From NCBI GenBank assembly GCA_025201365.1, contig JAIXMF010000185.1, positions 1 to 25,763 on the forward strand: DNA of 25,763 nucleotides, in the 5' to 3' direction. Below, piece after piece: positions 10,633-24,993 of this stretch. The DNA is from Syncephalis plumigaleata (taxonomy: Eukaryota; Zoopagomycota; Zoopagomycetes; Zoopagales; Piptocephalidaceae). Within the stretch, counting starts at the first letter, position 1; each line of letters starts with the position of its first letter. The notes under the pieces are model-generated. The model did no database searches. It saw only the letters and a program-made list of their open reading frames with translations, and was not told the origin of the DNA. Made by a program: the position numbers and the translations under genes.

Positions 10633-10778
10633 ACACTTTAATATGAATAATATTATACATGAATATATATTTTGCTTTTACCCTTTTCTCTTTATTAATA
10701 TCGAACTAAATAAAGTAACTTGGGATTTTCCTCCTATAAATAGTGCCTAATGTGAGCATGTATATTTCTCGCTTATCC
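10633..10778. repeat. Left inverted terminal repeat of the DIRS element (3' end of the element)
   Basis: Bases 10647-10778 are exactly the reverse complement of 14658-14789 (132 of 132 by eye). The outer 14 bases (10633-10646) differ, because the right repeat has about 28 extra bases at its end. The repeat contains TATAAATA (10735-10742) on the plus strand, so it could drive antisense transcription into the element. Confidence 0.92.
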
Positions 10779-10820
10779 GTTCTTCGCGGTCAATTCATGC
10801 TTGCGGAGGGTGTGGTGGGT

Positions 10821-10933
10821 AATATATATTCATGTATAATATTATTCATATTAAAGTGTAATTTTCATCAAATAAATTCTCTAGAAAATTACTTTAATAT
10901 TCATAATATTATACATGAATATATATTTTGCTT
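10821..10933. repeat. Internal complementary region (ICR) of the DIRS element
   Basis: Bases 10821-10859 are the reverse complement of the left end (10633-10671). Bases 10860-10933 are the reverse complement of the right end (14759-14832). The two halves meet at a single AATT (10860-10863), so this segment equals the sequence expected where the two element ends join in a circle. In DIRS models this region templates circularisation during replication. Its edge overlaps the recombinase stop codon by two bases. Confidence 0.9.
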
Positions 10934-11924
10934 ATTCAGCTGACGCAAAGTGTACTGGACTTATATCTAACACTTTTTCTGTAACATTACTTCTTAATAA
11001 ACGCTGGCGTCTGTAATGTTTTTCGAATGTGCGTGCATCTGCCCAATTGCCTAGTGTAATGATATCGTCGTGTGGCACACCTCTTTCAAGTGCTAAATCT
11101 GAAGCGATTGATCTGACACGAGGAGTTGGGCGAATGTCTGTTGAGAGCGCTGTCAACTTTGACAACCAAGAAGCAATGGTGTTATCGGCGACTTTATTGT
11201 GAGGCTTGCCTAACTTAGTGAATAGGTAGTTGTTTCTGACGATATATTGTGGGTGTTGTAATAGTGTTTCGTATGCTTGTACGGGGCATAGCTGTGGGAT
11301 GTTGCTGTTAGGTGGAATAATGATTGGTTTAGTAATCGACTCCTTCTTTCGCTTTTCTTTCGGATTAATGATGTATAGCTGTAGGCCTTCGTCAGTTGTT
11401 TTTGATTGTGATCTGCAAATTCTATTGATATCAGAGGGTCTCAATAGTGCTGACATTGCCAGTAAGTAAGCCGTTTTTCGTCGTAGTTGATCAAAATCAG
11501 CTGCTGGTGACGTCGGTATGGCGTATAAGTGACGTAATGTGGGCGTAATATCAACTTTTGATTTATTCAGTGGACGTGGGATGTATTTGAAGTTCCTTAT
11601 CAGTGCTTGTATGTCAGGATTGGTTTTGATTGATTCAGGGCGTGTGTGTAGCTTGACAATTGCTGCTCTATAAGTTTGTAGAGTTGCTTTGCTGTAGCCT
11701 GCTTCATGTGCATCTGCTATGAAATTAACCAAATCTGCTGATGTAAATTTGCTGATATTGATATCCCTTTGGATTGCCCATGAAATGAATAATTGTTGAC
11801 CTCTGATGTACGTTTTGTGCTTTACTTCTGCTAGAACTTTCACTGCCTTGTCCGAATATCCTGGCTCCTCATATTTTCGCTTGAGACACTCCACACGGAT
11901 ATTCTCCACTTGTGATTTATCCAT
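10932..11924 (-). CDS. DIRS tyrosine recombinase (YR)
   Basis: 330 aa if started at the ATG at 11922-11924, a normal length for a DIRS recombinase. The enzyme would insert the circular double-stranded DNA intermediate. Catalytic features, numbered in the longer 1037-codon open frame: first Arg in LLRPSDINR (R869), second Arg in TPRVRSIASD (R978), the Trp of GNW (W1001) at the His/Trp position, and the nucleophile in FEKHYRR (Y1011). The N-terminal part (KTYIRGQQLFISWA, YSKATLQTYRAAI) looks like a core-binding SAM-like domain. The frame is open far upstream without a stop, so translation could begin earlier or by frameshift from RT. It overlaps the RT ORF end by 85 nt with this start. Confidence 0.9.
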   Translation of the reverse strand: MDKSQVENIRVECLKRKYEEPGYSDKAVKVLAEVKHKTYIRGQQLFISWAIQRDINISKFTSADLVNFIADAHEAGYSKATLQTYRAAIVKLHTRPESIKTNPDIQALIRNFKYIPRPLNKSKVDITPTLRHLYAIPTSPAADFDQLRRKTAYLLAMSALLRPSDINRICRSQSKTTDEGLQLYIINPKEKRKKESITKPIIIPPNSNIPQLCPVQAYETLLQHPQYIVRNNYLFTKLGKPHNKVADNTIASWLSKLTALSTDIRPTPRVRSIASDLALERGVPHDDIITLGNWADARTFEKHYRRQRLLRSNVTEKVLDISPVHFASAE

Positions 11925-13873
11925 GGCCAACTGGCGGAAGGGGAGGTAGTTTGCGCGTGGTGTTGTGGGTCGAGTATTATTGGGGGAGCTGTGGCTAAGT
12001 TGCTCAGTATGGGGAACCACATTGCTGACGGCCAGAATGGCGTCACTATCGTTGCTTGTGTTATCTTCTCCTGTTGTATCTTGTTCACACATTTGGATAT
12101 CAAGTTCCACGGCGGATTCAGGTATGGGTGGTTGAATTGTTTCCAACTGATTGATAGTGCATCCGTGGCTATCGCATGAGGGTCTGGCTTCCACGCTACA
12201 TACGTTGGTAGTAGATGAGACGTTCGATCGGCGAATAGATCTACGTCGTGTTGACCGTACCTGCGTTGTATCTGTGCAAATGTGCGTGGATGTATTTGCC
12301 ATAGATTCTTGAGGTAGAACTTGCGCGATGCGTAGTCTGCTTCGGTATTCTGAGAGCCTGGAATGTGTTTGGCTCGAATCTGAATGTTCCTCTTGAGACA
12401 CATCTCCCATATCTGCGTTGCTAGTGAGCTGAGTTGACGAGATCTCGTTCCTCCCTGCTTGTTGATGTATGACTTCGCCGTCGTGTTGTCTGTGCGTATC
12501 AGAATCGTCGTATTCGATAGTTGCGGTAATGATTTGATCATCAATTCGATTGCTTTCAGCTCTCTCCAATTGATTGATTGCTTCGCTTCTTCGTGTGACC
12601 ATAGACCTTGTATCATGTTGTTCTTGTAAACTCCACCCCATCCTGTGTCGCTGGCATCCACATAGATTGATGATGTTGGTGGACGTGTTATTAGTGATCT
12701 GCCGTTCCACTTGGATAGGTTGGTGGACCACCATCTCAGTTCTCGCTTGCAATCTGCTGGTAGCGTCTGTTTGCAGTCCCAGTTCTTGTTGTTCTTCACA
12801 TGGGAATTCTTGAAGAACATCAATGCTTGGGTGTACAAGTTCACAGGAAATATTGCGATCGTCGCTGCCTTGATTCTCATTGTGAGACTGTGGATCATTC
12901 GAGGTGTTGTCGTATTGCTGTTGAGCACTGCTTTGATCGATTTGCGTATGTCGCGGATCTTCTTGGTGGGAAGCTTGATGGTCATCGTCTTCGTTTCTAT
13001 CTTGAAGCCTAGGTGAACTAGAGACTGCGTTGGAGTGAGCTGTGACTTCTTGGGATTCCACAACCAACCTAGTTCTGCTAGTTTGGCCATTATTGTGTTT
13101 GTGTGACATTTCGATTCCTGCTTTGAGCTGGCGATGATGATCCAATCGTCTAGGTATGCAGAAACTCGAATGCCTATTGACCTTGCCCACGTTAAGACGG
13201 GCTTTGTTAAACGTGTAAAAACCCACGGGACTACTGATAGGCCGAAGGGTGTGGTGCGAAATTGGAATGTGTCTCCTTCCCAATTGAATCGTAGGTATTT
13301 TCTTGAGCTGCGATGTACCAAAATGTGTAGGAAGGCGTCGGTAATGTCTATGGACGTGAGGTAGTCGTTTTTCCTTACTAGCTGGGTGACCTGTTGGATT
13401 GTCTCCATCTTGAAGTGAGGGGATATAACGTGCTGATTCAGTGCCTTCAGATTGAACACTGGTCGATAGCCTCCGTTCCACTTCGGGATGACAAACATGG
13501 GACTCATGTAACCTGGCGTATTCGTGGCAGGCTCTATTGCTCGTTTGGCCAATAGACTGTTGATCTCTTGCCTCAGTAATACGCGCTGTTCCTGGTTGAG
13601 CGGGATCGTCGGTCGCACTTTGTTTGAGATTGGTGGCCACTTGCTGAAATGTATCCGGAAACCTTCTTTGACGACGGCATGTACCCACTTGCTGTCTGTC
13701 AATCGAGCCCAGGCTAGATGGAAGCGCTGGAATCTGCCTCCTACTGTTGGTTGTTGTTGTTGTTGTTGTTGTTGTGGTTGCCTCTGTTGAATTGGGGCTT
13801 GACTCTGCCTCCTCTTCTGTTGTTGTTGGCTTGGTTGAATGGGCGCTTCTGGTAAGAGTTCCTGTTGTGCCAA
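11840..13873 (-). CDS. DIRS reverse transcriptase / RNase H / methylase-like polyprotein
   Basis: 677 aa from the first ATG of the frame. After a Gln-rich start (residues 1-42) comes an RT domain with KWNGGYRPVFNLK (131-143), SIDITDAF (174-181) and the catalytic box YLDD (240-243). RNase H follows, with YVDAS (D406), WRELKAIE (E438), RTDN (D462) and EADYAS (D513). The last part has DVDLFADR, NPPW (586-589) and TPFW (611-614), the DIRS-associated adenine-methylase-like domain. It copies element RNA into DNA. The start overlaps the Gag-like ORF by 133 nt in another frame, so expression may need frameshifting or internal initiation. All catalytic residues seem present. Confidence 0.93.
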   Translation of the reverse strand: MAQQELLPEAPIQPSQQQQKRRQSQAPIQQRQPQQQQQQQQPTVGGRFQRFHLAWARLTDSKWVHAVVKEGFRIHFSKWPPISNKVRPTIPLNQEQRVLLRQEINSLLAKRAIEPATNTPGYMSPMFVIPKWNGGYRPVFNLKALNQHVISPHFKMETIQQVTQLVRKNDYLTSIDITDAFLHILVHRSSRKYLRFNWEGDTFQFRTTPFGLSVVPWVFTRLTKPVLTWARSIGIRVSAYLDDWIIIASSKQESKCHTNTIMAKLAELGWLWNPKKSQLTPTQSLVHLGFKIETKTMTIKLPTKKIRDIRKSIKAVLNSNTTTPRMIHSLTMRIKAATIAIFPVNLYTQALMFFKNSHVKNNKNWDCKQTLPADCKRELRWWSTNLSKWNGRSLITRPPTSSIYVDASDTGWGGVYKNNMIQGLWSHEEAKQSINWRELKAIELMIKSLPQLSNTTILIRTDNTTAKSYINKQGGTRSRQLSSLATQIWEMCLKRNIQIRAKHIPGSQNTEADYASRKFYLKNLWQIHPRTFAQIQRRYGQHDVDLFADRTSHLLPTYVAWKPDPHAIATDALSISWKQFNHPYLNPPWNLISKCVNKIQQEKITQATIVTPFWPSAMWFPILSNLATAPPIILDPQHHAQTTSPSASWPWINHKWRISVWSVSSENMRSQDIRTRQ

Positions 13874-14045
13874 TTGGATTGATCCTGCCCGCCAGCGTTT
13901 CGTGGCGGGTCCGCTCGAAAAAACTGCTGGGCTTTTTTGTGTTCCAGTATGGCCTTCTTTTGGTTGCTTTGCTCAATGAAGGCTTGTTGGATAATTGCAA
14001 GATCTTCCTTTGGTTGCTCTTCTCTCTGAATGAGTGTGAAGTCAC
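11925..14045 (-). other. Open frame upstream of and in phase with YR, overlapping RT and Gag
   Basis: The recombinase frame stays open for 707 codons upstream of its likely start, through almost all of the RT ORF and into the Gag ORF. The predicted peptide is Ser/Thr/Gln/Asn/His/Arg-rich and shows no domain that I recognise. It may be an N-terminal extension of the recombinase or only a frame kept open by composition. Extensive overlap of RT and YR ORFs is known in DIRS-1. Confidence 0.45.
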
Positions 14046-14568
14046 TGTCCATTGACTTGAGGACCATATCCATTCTAAACGATTTCACAGTGTGAATCGT
14101 GTTTAACAGCAACGATCTAATATCGTCTAGAGCTACTACAAACTGGCGGTCAGCTTCCTGGTCTGCTTGAAGGATTGCTTGTTGTAGGATAACATCTAGC
14201 GGGCGTACAACGCCTGTTAATAAATATGCTATTTGTTTGAATCGGCTGTCGTATGCCTTCTGATACTTGTTGAGTTTTGAGCTCGATTCATAGCTACTGA
14301 CTGGCGTATAGTCAATACCTTCTATTGGAGCGTAGGCATCGACTATTGCCTTCTTGTCTTTCTCAGATAAGCTAAAGTTATCCAGCTTTGCTGACCATGA
14401 ACTGACGTGGTTAACAAAGTTTTCGTCCGGAATCCAGGTGTCCTTCTGCCTGGTCGGGAGTTGAACCTGCAGAGTTTCTTGCATCTGTTTGAACTGCTGC
14501 ATAGCTTCTTGCATTTGCTGCCACATCGCCATCATCTCCTGTGGGTTGAAACCTTGATTTTGTTCCAT
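13741..14568 (-). CDS. DIRS Gag-like protein (ORF1)
   Basis: 275 aa, first ORF after the right terminal repeat, with ATG at 14566-14568, 126 nt downstream of a TATAAATA in that repeat. The N-terminus is rich in Met and Gln (residues 1-36, likely a coiled coil). The middle is mostly helical-looking with Trp and Tyr residues. The C-terminus is basic and rich in Arg, Gly and Asn (RRGGRVKPQFNRG), ending in an Asn run. No CCHC zinc knuckle is present, which is usual for DIRS Gag-like proteins. It probably coats element RNA. Assignment rests on position and composition more than on motifs. Confidence 0.75.
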   Translation of the reverse strand: MEQNQGFNPQEMMAMWQQMQEAMQQFKQMQETLQVQLPTRQKDTWIPDENFVNHVSSWSAKLDNFSLSEKDKKAIVDAYAPIEGIDYTPVSSYESSSKLNKYQKAYDSRFKQIAYLLTGVVRPLDVILQQAILQADQEADRQFVVALDDIRSLLLNTIHTVKSFRMDMVLKSMDSDFTLIQREEQPKEDLAIIQQAFIEQSNQKKAILEHKKAQQFFRADPPRNAGGQDQSNWHNRNSYQKRPFNQANNNRRGGRVKPQFNRGNHNNNNNNNNQQ

Positions 14569-14628
14569 TGCAAATGTTGTAAATAACGCTATATAAAATA
14601 TAATGATAATAGAACGCTTTAACTAGAA

Positions 14629-14651
14629 CTTTGCGGTGATGACCGCGAAAG
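14629..14651 (-). promoter_or_regulatory. Imperfect hairpin in the element leader
   Basis: CTTT-GCGGT, a GATG loop, then ACCGC-G-AAAG pair as a nine-base stem with one bulged G. It lies 61 nt upstream of the Gag-like ATG, just inside the right terminal repeat. The matching place at the left end keeps only part of this sequence. A role in RNA packaging, priming or translation is conjecture. Confidence 0.35.
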
Positions 14652-14657
14652 AGAAAA

Positions 14658-14832
14658 GGATAAGCGAGAAATATACATGCTCACATTAGGCACTATTTAT
14701 AGGAGGAAAATCCCAAGTTACTTTATTTAGTTCGATATTAATAAAGAGAAAAGGGTAAAAGCAAAATATATATTCATGTATAATATTATGAATATTAAAG
14801 TAATTTTCTAGAGAATTTATTTGATGAAAATT
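14658..14832. repeat. Right inverted terminal repeat of the DIRS element (5' end of the element)
   Basis: Bases 14658-14789 are exactly inverted relative to 10647-10778. The outer part (14790-14832) is longer than the left terminus and is matched fully only in the internal complementary region. It holds the likely element promoter on the minus strand. Confidence 0.92.
14694..14701 (-). promoter_or_regulatory. TATA-like box of the DIRS element
   Basis: TATAAATA on the minus strand within the right terminal repeat, 126 nt upstream of the Gag-like ATG. It is the only canonical TATA string seen in the leader. The same string is present inverted in the left repeat. Confidence 0.5.
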
Positions 14833-22837: not shown

Positions 22838-24993
22838 TTACAATTCAAAGAATAGCTTGACTTTTTCCTCCAAGAACTTGACACGAGCATCTCGTTTCGC
22901 TAGATCCTCGCGTAATTGAGCATTTTCACGACGTAATTTCTCCAATTCCGCCTAGATAACACATTATCATATAGAATCATTAGGATAAATACGAACGATT
23001 AATTACTAAATTACCTTAGTTGATGCATCAATCGTACTGCTACCATTAGGTGTCGTGGCAGTCACCGTAACGGATGCTGCCTTGTTCTCCACCTTTGTTT
23101 TATTTGGTTCTGTCGCTTTGGCCACTTCTCGTTGAGCGGGGGTTAGCGGACGTGCTGCAGATGATTCGGTGGTGGCAGCAGCAGCAGCAGGAGTTAGCGT
23201 ATTTGCACTTATACTACTCGATGAGTGAGCAGAGGTTGTACTAGTATTGGCATGACCACCACTTGATTTAGGTGGTAATGGTGAAGGTGTACGTGCACGT
23301 TGAGCAGCAGCAATTCTAGCGGCATCTGCTTCACCACCAGTCTCTAGATCGAATAGAATAGGATTAGCATTCTGACCGTTAAAGTAGTCATCGGCCGATT
23401 GAGCTGGTTGTTGACCGGCAGTAGGAGGGAAGATATCAGCCTGGAATGTATCAGACTAAACAAACAAACAAACAAATAAATGTAATGATGATGAGCAGAA
23501 GGATATTTGTGAGAGAACATTGATGATGCTTACCCGACGTGGTACTACAAATGAGATCGGTTCAATCAAATTGCTGGTAACCTTAAAGGCACGAGCCACT
23601 TCGCAGTCATGTGCATTAAGTGCGTATTTCGGCATAAATGCAATGCCTCGTTGTGGTTCCGTTGATTTGTACTCGGATAGTAAAAATAGATCATCGCTCT
23701 CGTATTCAAAGTAACGAATATTGCCATCACTGTAGTGCAATACAATGTAATTGCATTAGTTAAACGATATAAACTGATAATGACATGCAGTCATCTACAT
23801 AAACTATAACCTACCCCTAAATAATAAGTAATTATACAATGTTAGTCATCTATTCTACTAGTGTAGCAATACATTTATTAGTAATACTACTTACTTTACC
23901 CGCTAGATATAGCATGTTGACATCTGCATCAAAGTAGGGCATGAGCACGCCCGAGGATGAATCGATAGATTTCATCTTTAATGGTTTCTCCATATTCCTC
24001 GTGTCCCATAGAGCGAGTTGACGATCACTCGATCGAGCAAATCCAGTGGTGGCCAAACGATCATGCTGGCCAAGCCATACGACACGCGCTCCCTTGATGC
24101 CCTGATGTCCGTCCGTCTCTTGTATCACTTGATTGGCGCGTACATCGAGTATACGCAACTTTTTATCGCGACAAGTAGTCGCCATTAGACTGCCGTTATA
24201 ATTCCAAGTAATCGATTGAATGACTTCGTTGTGACCCTCAACGGTCTGACGCTCAACAGCCTTTTCCGTGTCCCATAGTTTAACGGTGGTGTCTGCACTT
24301 GAACTGGCTACTACATGATCAGCCGTAGGATGGAATAGAACATGGCCTACTTTGCTATAAAAAGGAAGATGTATAATGTGTATATGTATTGGCATGGTCA
24401 TTAATAAATGTTTACTAGTATATCAACTAGGCAATTGCTCAGCTGTTTGGTCATGTTACCTACCGCTGATGACCAGACAATGTAGCTAATGGTTCAGTTT
24501 GCGAGTCTTCCCATTCAGTATCGGGTATGCGCCAGATCATTACTTTGCCATCTTCAGCGGCACTAGCAATTATTTGATTATTGAAGTTGGCGAATGACGT
24601 ATCAAGTACCGCGCTAGAATGTCCATGGAAGAGGGGTTGTTCCGCGGGTAGACGACCTGTACGATATTCCATTAACAACATACATACTACTGATAGTGGT
24701 CATACGATACTTACCTACGGAAGTAAGAGGGATTACGGCAAAAGCACCGCCACCAGCTGCCTCCCAGTTCACGGCAAGGTATTTCTAGTCATATGTGTGT
24801 GTGTTTGGCATATCGATATGAATATCCTCGAGTGAATACGCTCTACGTCACAAGTGTCACTTACCGAGTTGACCGATAGCAGATTGGAGTCCCATGCGTT
24901 ATTCGAGACTCTTATGTTATCGTAGCAGTTCTCTCGACGGGCAGCCGTACCAAATACATGGCGGAACTTCGAGGCACGTACGAAGCGAGACAT
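22838..24993 (-). CDS. crn1: Coronin, actin-binding WD40 protein
   Basis: Eight exons on the minus strand: 24865-24993, 24715-24784, 24464-24656, 23895-24354, 23815-23816 (2 nt), 23534-23729, 23015-23455, 22838-22951. Together they are 1605 nt (534 aa). The N-terminus [15 protein letters not shown] and [14 protein letters not shown] are coronin hallmarks. WD40 blades follow ([29 protein letters not shown]), then VARAFKV, SFVVPRR and [11 protein letters not shown] of the conserved extension. A Ser/Thr/Ala/Pro-rich linker and a C-terminal coiled coil (about 498-534, [15 protein letters not shown]) end the protein. Coronin bundles F-actin and regulates Arp2/3 at cortical patches. Without the 2-nt exon the frame would hit TGA at once. 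Confidence 0.93.
23815..23816 (-). other. crn1: Two-nucleotide microexon (GG) of crn1
   Basis: On the minus strand the sequence reads ATTATTTAG, GG, GTAGGT. The preceding exon ends in phase 0 at AAA (23895). The next begins with T-GAT-GGC (23729). GG restores GGT, giving the coronin-conserved K-G-D-G-N. The flanking introns are 78 and 85 nt, normal for this window, and each has its own CTAAC/CTAAT branch-like motif. Confidence 0.75.

Follow-up and report, generated by a model that had tools for sequence, protein, structure and literature searches.

In recursive splicing, and likewise in the stwintrons of fungi, consecutive splicing reactions are needed to take out one stretch. Stwintrons consist of one intron nested in a splice signal of another, and no exon is left. 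The closest described counterparts of the locus reported here are the 1-nt exons of the plant genes APC11 and VPS55, which are proven by RNA, conserved across species and missed by annotation (PMC4674806, PMC8831610). Aphid bicycle genes have approximately 17 exons on average, almost all of phase 2 (PMC9168663).

The window, a stretch of 25,763 nucleotides from Syncephalis plumigaleata, contains a coronin gene on its minus strand. An earlier note had observed an exon of only two nucleotides, GG, in this gene, and we confirm the observation. The gene as rebuilt from the sequence has the following features.

24865..24993, minus strand: exon 1 of the rebuilt gene, with the ATG
24715..24784, minus strand: exon 2 of the rebuilt gene
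24464..24656, minus strand: exon 3 of the rebuilt gene
23895..24354, minus strand: exon 4, 460 nt, 3' end GCG GGT AAA, phase 0
23817..23894, minus strand: upstream intron, 78 nt, donor GTAAGT, acceptor TTTAG, 69th percentile of 258 introns
23841..23847, minus strand: branch-like GACTAAC within the upstream intron; its A is 26 nt from exon 5 (counted by hand)
23815..23816, minus strand: exon 5, GG, 2 nt, forming with the T of exon 6 the codon GGT (Gly of LAGKGDGN)
23730..23814, minus strand: downstream intron, 85 nt, donor GTAGGT, acceptor CTACAG, 18th percentile of 258 introns
23755..23761, minus strand: branch-like AACTAAT within the downstream intron; its A is 27 nt from exon 6 (counted by hand)
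23534..23729, minus strand: exon 6, 196 nt, starting T GAT GGC
23015..23455, minus strand: exon 7, low-complexity linker
22838..22951, minus strand: exon 8, C-terminal heptad-like segment (by eye) and stop

The predicted spliced junction of exons 4, 5 and 6 reads GCGGGTAAA-GG-TGATGGC. On rebuilding, AAA ends at 23895 in phase 0, GG occupies 23816-23815 and TGATGGC begins at 23729, all exactly where the earlier note had placed them. Joining 23895 directly to 23729 gives AAA-TGA, the immediate stop that had been claimed, and the 78- and 85-nt introns around GG are present in the sequence with their own donor, acceptor and CTAAC or CTAAT. We also reproduced the exon total of 1605 nt and the restoration of LAGKGDGN by GG; the eight exons encode 534 amino acids and a stop, with no internal stop codons.

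The product matches the Pfam families DUF1899 (PF08953, 1.1e-33), WD40 (PF00400, 1.3e-24) and WD40_4 (PF16300, 4.1e-20), and its best matches in the PDB are coronins, with coronin-6 first (2.9e-116). GKGD is found at the place of the junction in five of five coronin alignments among those listed (7kyx, 2aq5, 7sty, 9qey, 4ozu), and in this gene its Gly is supplied only by the GG exon. A search of the organism's own genome with coronin returned the gene and its allele as the only strong matches, the next being at 26% identity (4.2e-11), and no relatives were found in the viral contigs searched. The C-terminus of the translation is heptad-like as judged by eye.

We trained an unsupervised gene finder on 226 kb of this genome, made up of the window and 200 kb of C1. 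Its initial splice model was derived from ORFs, and two preliminary intron sets were small (15 and 89 introns). The training output consists of 44 genes and 272 introns, with alleles counted twice. The intron cost of -9, set by reasoning, was kept across the gene-finder predictions and the array models described below. The gene finder picked the GG exon without knowledge of the coronin family, and picked it again in both alleles after the splice-site, branch and length models had been rebuilt without the 14 coronin introns (258 introns remained; coronin stayed in the codon table). Apart from one array gene, the sole exon below 8 nt predicted in the 226 kb is GG, which is present in both coronin alleles.

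Both introns of the gap are bounded by GT and AG and contain CTAAY. The donor GTAGGT of the downstream intron recurs in coronin intron 24463-24355, while its acceptor is weak (8th percentile) and the intron as a whole is below average. The alternative single intron of 165 nt falls at the 6th percentile of the 258 training introns. Its length had also been held against it, as greater than that of any other intron in a range of 56-109 nt. It is indeed longer than the other coronin introns; however, these span 58-109 nt, the 56-nt intron being predicted in another gene of the window, and the argument is only a moderate one, as 7 of 258 predicted non-array introns are at least 150 nt long. Eleven of the 258 exceed 110 nt, some of them weak predictions (226 kb, coronin's own introns included).

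To enumerate the ways of closing the gap we considered each GT-AG intron and each ordered pair of introns, the second acting on the product of the first, with ends up to 40 nt from the ends of the gap. None of the 34 entries that restore the coronin frame, with orders counted apart, uses one GT-AG intron only. The GG model takes the two top scores, 3.63 and 3.38 for its two orders, followed by a 5-nt exon reading KFIDGN at -1.33, and KGDG is obtained with the GG solution only. In four kinds of random controls, a frame-restoring pair of introns that scores as well or better occurs in 32, 117, 18 and 45 of 6000 cases (212/24,000 in total). Such solutions contain a 2-nt exon in 3, 2, 1 and 8 cases per 6000 (14/24,000), and a GG exon in 0, 1, 0 and 0 (1/24,000). 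The GG solution is more than chance.

The window is a haplotig of C1:1563846-1585520, with 96-98% identity, so that parts of the assembly hold both haplotypes. The microexon lies within an 18-base motif with exactly two copies in the genome, one in the window and one at C1:1583556-1583573. The earlier note had named an indel in the exons as grounds for rejecting its reading. The C1 allele speaks against one: it has the same eight exon lengths, a product of 534 amino acids, and no indels in the gap. The alleles differ by six substitutions in 1605 exon nucleotides (two amino acids). In the gap introns (163 nt together) there is a single substitution, too few to judge selection against neutrality, and the 388 nt of the other coronin introns contain 10 substitutions and 8 indel columns.

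Elsewhere in the window, a mobile element of approximately 4.2 kb (10633-14828), putatively DIRS-like, carries repeats at its ends and internally, together with reading frames that resemble reverse transcriptase. It is absent from the C1 allele, where the flanks join at 1574528-1574531. Positions 1-1939 of the window have a further copy, 82% identical and probably a paralogue, at C1:1637805-1639743.

These data support the interpretation of GG as a microexon, and alternatives to it can be weighed against the same evidence. The frame is also restored, on inspection, by one 165-nt intron with a non-canonical GT...AC end, which leaves AGTGATGG (AAA-AGT-GAT, K-S-D-G) and makes a microexon unnecessary. 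However, this intron puts Ser in place of the Gly found in all five listed coronin alignments and ignores the canonical CTACAG two bases further, and we give it very little chance of being correct. It was noticed by eye and carries no score, as the enumeration and the gene finder were limited to GT-AG introns. A sequencing or assembly error, or a broken allele, in which two bases are missing from an exon flanking one ordinary intron, would produce the same symptom as a GG microexon. Yet two separately assembled alleles that differ in other introns agree at the gap, where the absence of indels makes a shared sequencing slip unlikely. Neither junction lies inside a long homopolymer, and the acceptor, donor and branch signals that flank precisely the two needed bases are not something an error would produce. 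This explanation is therefore highly improbable.

It is equally improbable that another small exon is used, or that there is a mixture of products. The 5-nt exon keeps the frame and has splice-like signals, but its score of -1.33 compares with 3.4-3.6 for GG, and it lacks the Gly and makes a conserved turn one residue longer. Nested twin introns are known from fungi, and one of these would remove the gap with no exon left. No nested solution is present among the 24 listed of the 34 rows, the other 10 of which repeat peptides already listed, and an intron with the same outer ends still gives AAA-TGA. This possibility is the most remote of those considered.

GG is thus, with high probability, a real exon of the coronin mRNA, probably a constitutive one, joined by two successive intron-defined splicings. 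The flanking introns would both be ordinary short introns of the U2 type. As introns are short in this genome (median 66-68 nt in the gene-finder predictions), recognition across the intron is likely. Splice sites 2 nt apart would be hard to occupy together given the footprints of splice sites. The acceptor and donor around GG are probably not bound simultaneously, so that one intron would go first and the other would be spliced on the product. The intermediate would read either AAAGG and then GTAGGT, or TTTAG-GG and then TGATGG, and the scores of the two orders (3.63 and 3.38) favor neither. We infer successive removal from this crowding of two splice sites, and it is the best-supported mechanism. 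That the organism tolerates such an exon would be in keeping with a spliceosome that already seems to handle hundreds to thousands of exons of 2-9 nt.

Such exons are predicted in a family of genes for secreted-type peptides. At C1:1610213-1611447 (minus strand; L022, L031), a predicted 94-nt leader exon of secreted type is followed by exons of 3, 9 and 2 nt, ten exons of 3 nt and a last exon of 6 nt; the 14 introns in between measure 70-80 nt. A search of the genome with this leader gives 150 matches at E-values no worse than 4.1e-4, alleles among them; of 169 candidates, these 150 were scored. Further array loci are found at C362:256900-262300 (L044, L048), C68:288900-292200 (L046) and C1:1706900-1710500 (L043), among others. 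Twelve loci (L031-L042) yielded seven array gene models, one fragment, two cases with another gene only and two with nothing above the cut. In the 11 array loci that were modeled, from which L041 was left out because it overlaps L043, 215 of 248 internal exons are 3 nt long and lie between introns of approximately 79 nt. CTAAY is found in 222 of 259 array introns, compared with 48% of the 258 training introns. The introns within an array gene have a mean identity of 64-74%, compared with 50-51% for shuffled sequences, which indicates that the units share descent. The pairs L031/L032, L033/L034 and L044/L045 are alleles, so these counts are not independent.

Whether the arrays are coding, or a satellite with an intron-like look, can also be judged from the pattern independently of gene models. 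ATAG-NNN-GTAAGT occurs 1842 times genome-wide and its reversed pattern 222 times, whereas the corresponding numbers are 153 and 215 with two nucleotides in place of three (ATAG-NN-GTAAGT) and 147 and 233 with four (ATAG-NNNN-GTAAGT). TAA or TGA is found in 8 of the 1842 triplets (TAG is outside the count), compared with 58 for the reversed pattern and approximately 58, calculated by hand, for uniform triplets. In 15 loci defined by the pattern alone, 249 gaps fall in the range of 1-15 nt, of which 210 measure 3 nt and 241 a multiple of three; the opposite strand of these loci yields 15 gaps, and not one measures 3 nt. Among the 210 triplets there are 40 different kinds and no stops. The absence of stops is weak evidence alone, as shuffling of positions gives an average of 2.6 and 116 of 2000 shuffles also reach zero. 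The codon log-odds of the triplets is 0.072, compared with -0.026 (s.d. 0.031) when codon positions are shuffled. Prokaryote genomes contain 23 stretches that fit the array pattern; in 21, most of which are cyanobacterial, the constant triplet is GGA. However, each of the 23 has one constant triplet, as opposed to the 40 kinds in the 15 loci here, and the GGA stretches resemble CRISPR repeats. No arrays of this pattern were found in viral contigs.

The 3' ends of the array genes are uncertain, since some ends and some unusual exons came out differently when eight of them were re-parsed with a flat codon table and an intron cost of -5. The re-parse removes exons of 0, 15 and 26 nt from earlier models, and one model loses its leader. 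In L043, two long introns (135 and 161 nt) and a doubtful 2-nt exon remain. The re-parsed models have up to 48 introns in the C362 gene and 35 in L046. In the array gene models the leader, a signal peptide by eye, ends at a dibasic-type site, which we assume to be Kex2-like, and a short variable peptide follows. The L046 peptide has a C...CC...C arrangement, of which C...CC is common to L043. Three re-parsed peptides have no Pfam family at E<=0.1, and the best PDB match of one array peptide is at 0.49. The probable alleles L033 (C32) and L034 (C90) have 15 and 17 introns and differ in their mature peptides; they are two single-codon units apart, as if units had been gained or lost.

Five of the 11 modeled array loci (L031-L034 and L037) have a 2-nt exon, always in the same ordinal position. 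They represent three gene types, two of which are present with a second copy; the other six loci have 5 nt at this position. The coronin GG is thus no freak in this genome, though 2-nt exons are not numerous. Exons this short had been called extremely rare in the earlier note. The statement has to be qualified, since within one gene family of this genome exons of 2-9 nt are commonplace, although 2-nt exons show no genome-wide excess by the ATAG-NN-GTAAGT pattern. From the tiny array exons and the 1842 ATAG-NNN-GTAAGT sites, ultra-short exons look routine here. The coronin gap introns do not appear noticeably related to the array introns, with mean identities of 0.59 and 0.57 compared with 0.55 and 0.56 for two other coronin introns. 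We consider it likely that the spliceosome of this organism is adapted to ultra-short exons, that its secreted peptides are encoded at nearly one codon per exon and change by exchange, perhaps also skipping, of units, and that the coronin GG draws on the same ability in a housekeeping gene. If this is true, hundreds to well over a thousand single-codon exons lie between related introns of approximately 79 nt, and single residues could be gained, lost and reordered by exchange of units with the frame kept. The family would allow the order of intron removal and the minimum length of an exon to be tested on a large scale in one organism, as well as whether single codons are exchanged or skipped to diversify the peptides. 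In a conserved gene, an exon of 2 nt is in turn a test of how a spliceosome recognizes splice sites this close together. Exons such as GG will escape annotation pipelines and short-read aligners.

Phrase searches of the open literature, with subscription papers and preprints outside of their range, returned no description of a 2-nt exon of the coronin type or of a family with one codon per exon, and the term "2-nt" has no occurrences in the main text of PMC8831610. Like the plant 1-nt exons, the coronin GG lies between ordinary introns and is needed for the frame of a conserved gene. However, it has two nucleotides, belongs to another lineage and is predicted from DNA. As 1-nt exons are already proven in plants, what would be new is an exon of two. 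Like the fungal stwintrons, the coronin gap would need consecutive splicing reactions for one stretch, but its introns are adjacent rather than nested and two bases remain. The peptide family resembles the Schistosoma micro-exon genes (PMC4015677) and aphid bicycle genes (PMC9168663) in that the products are secreted, the exons tiny and the families large and fast-changing. Its single-codon exons are of phase 0, in contrast to the phase 2 of almost all bicycle gene exons. Judged from genomic sequence, it has the organization that defines micro-exon genes, a signal-peptide exon (by eye) followed by many tiny exons that keep the frame. With mostly single-codon internal exons between related introns of approximately 79 nt, this near one-codon-per-exon family would go further than the micro-exon genes with which it was compared.
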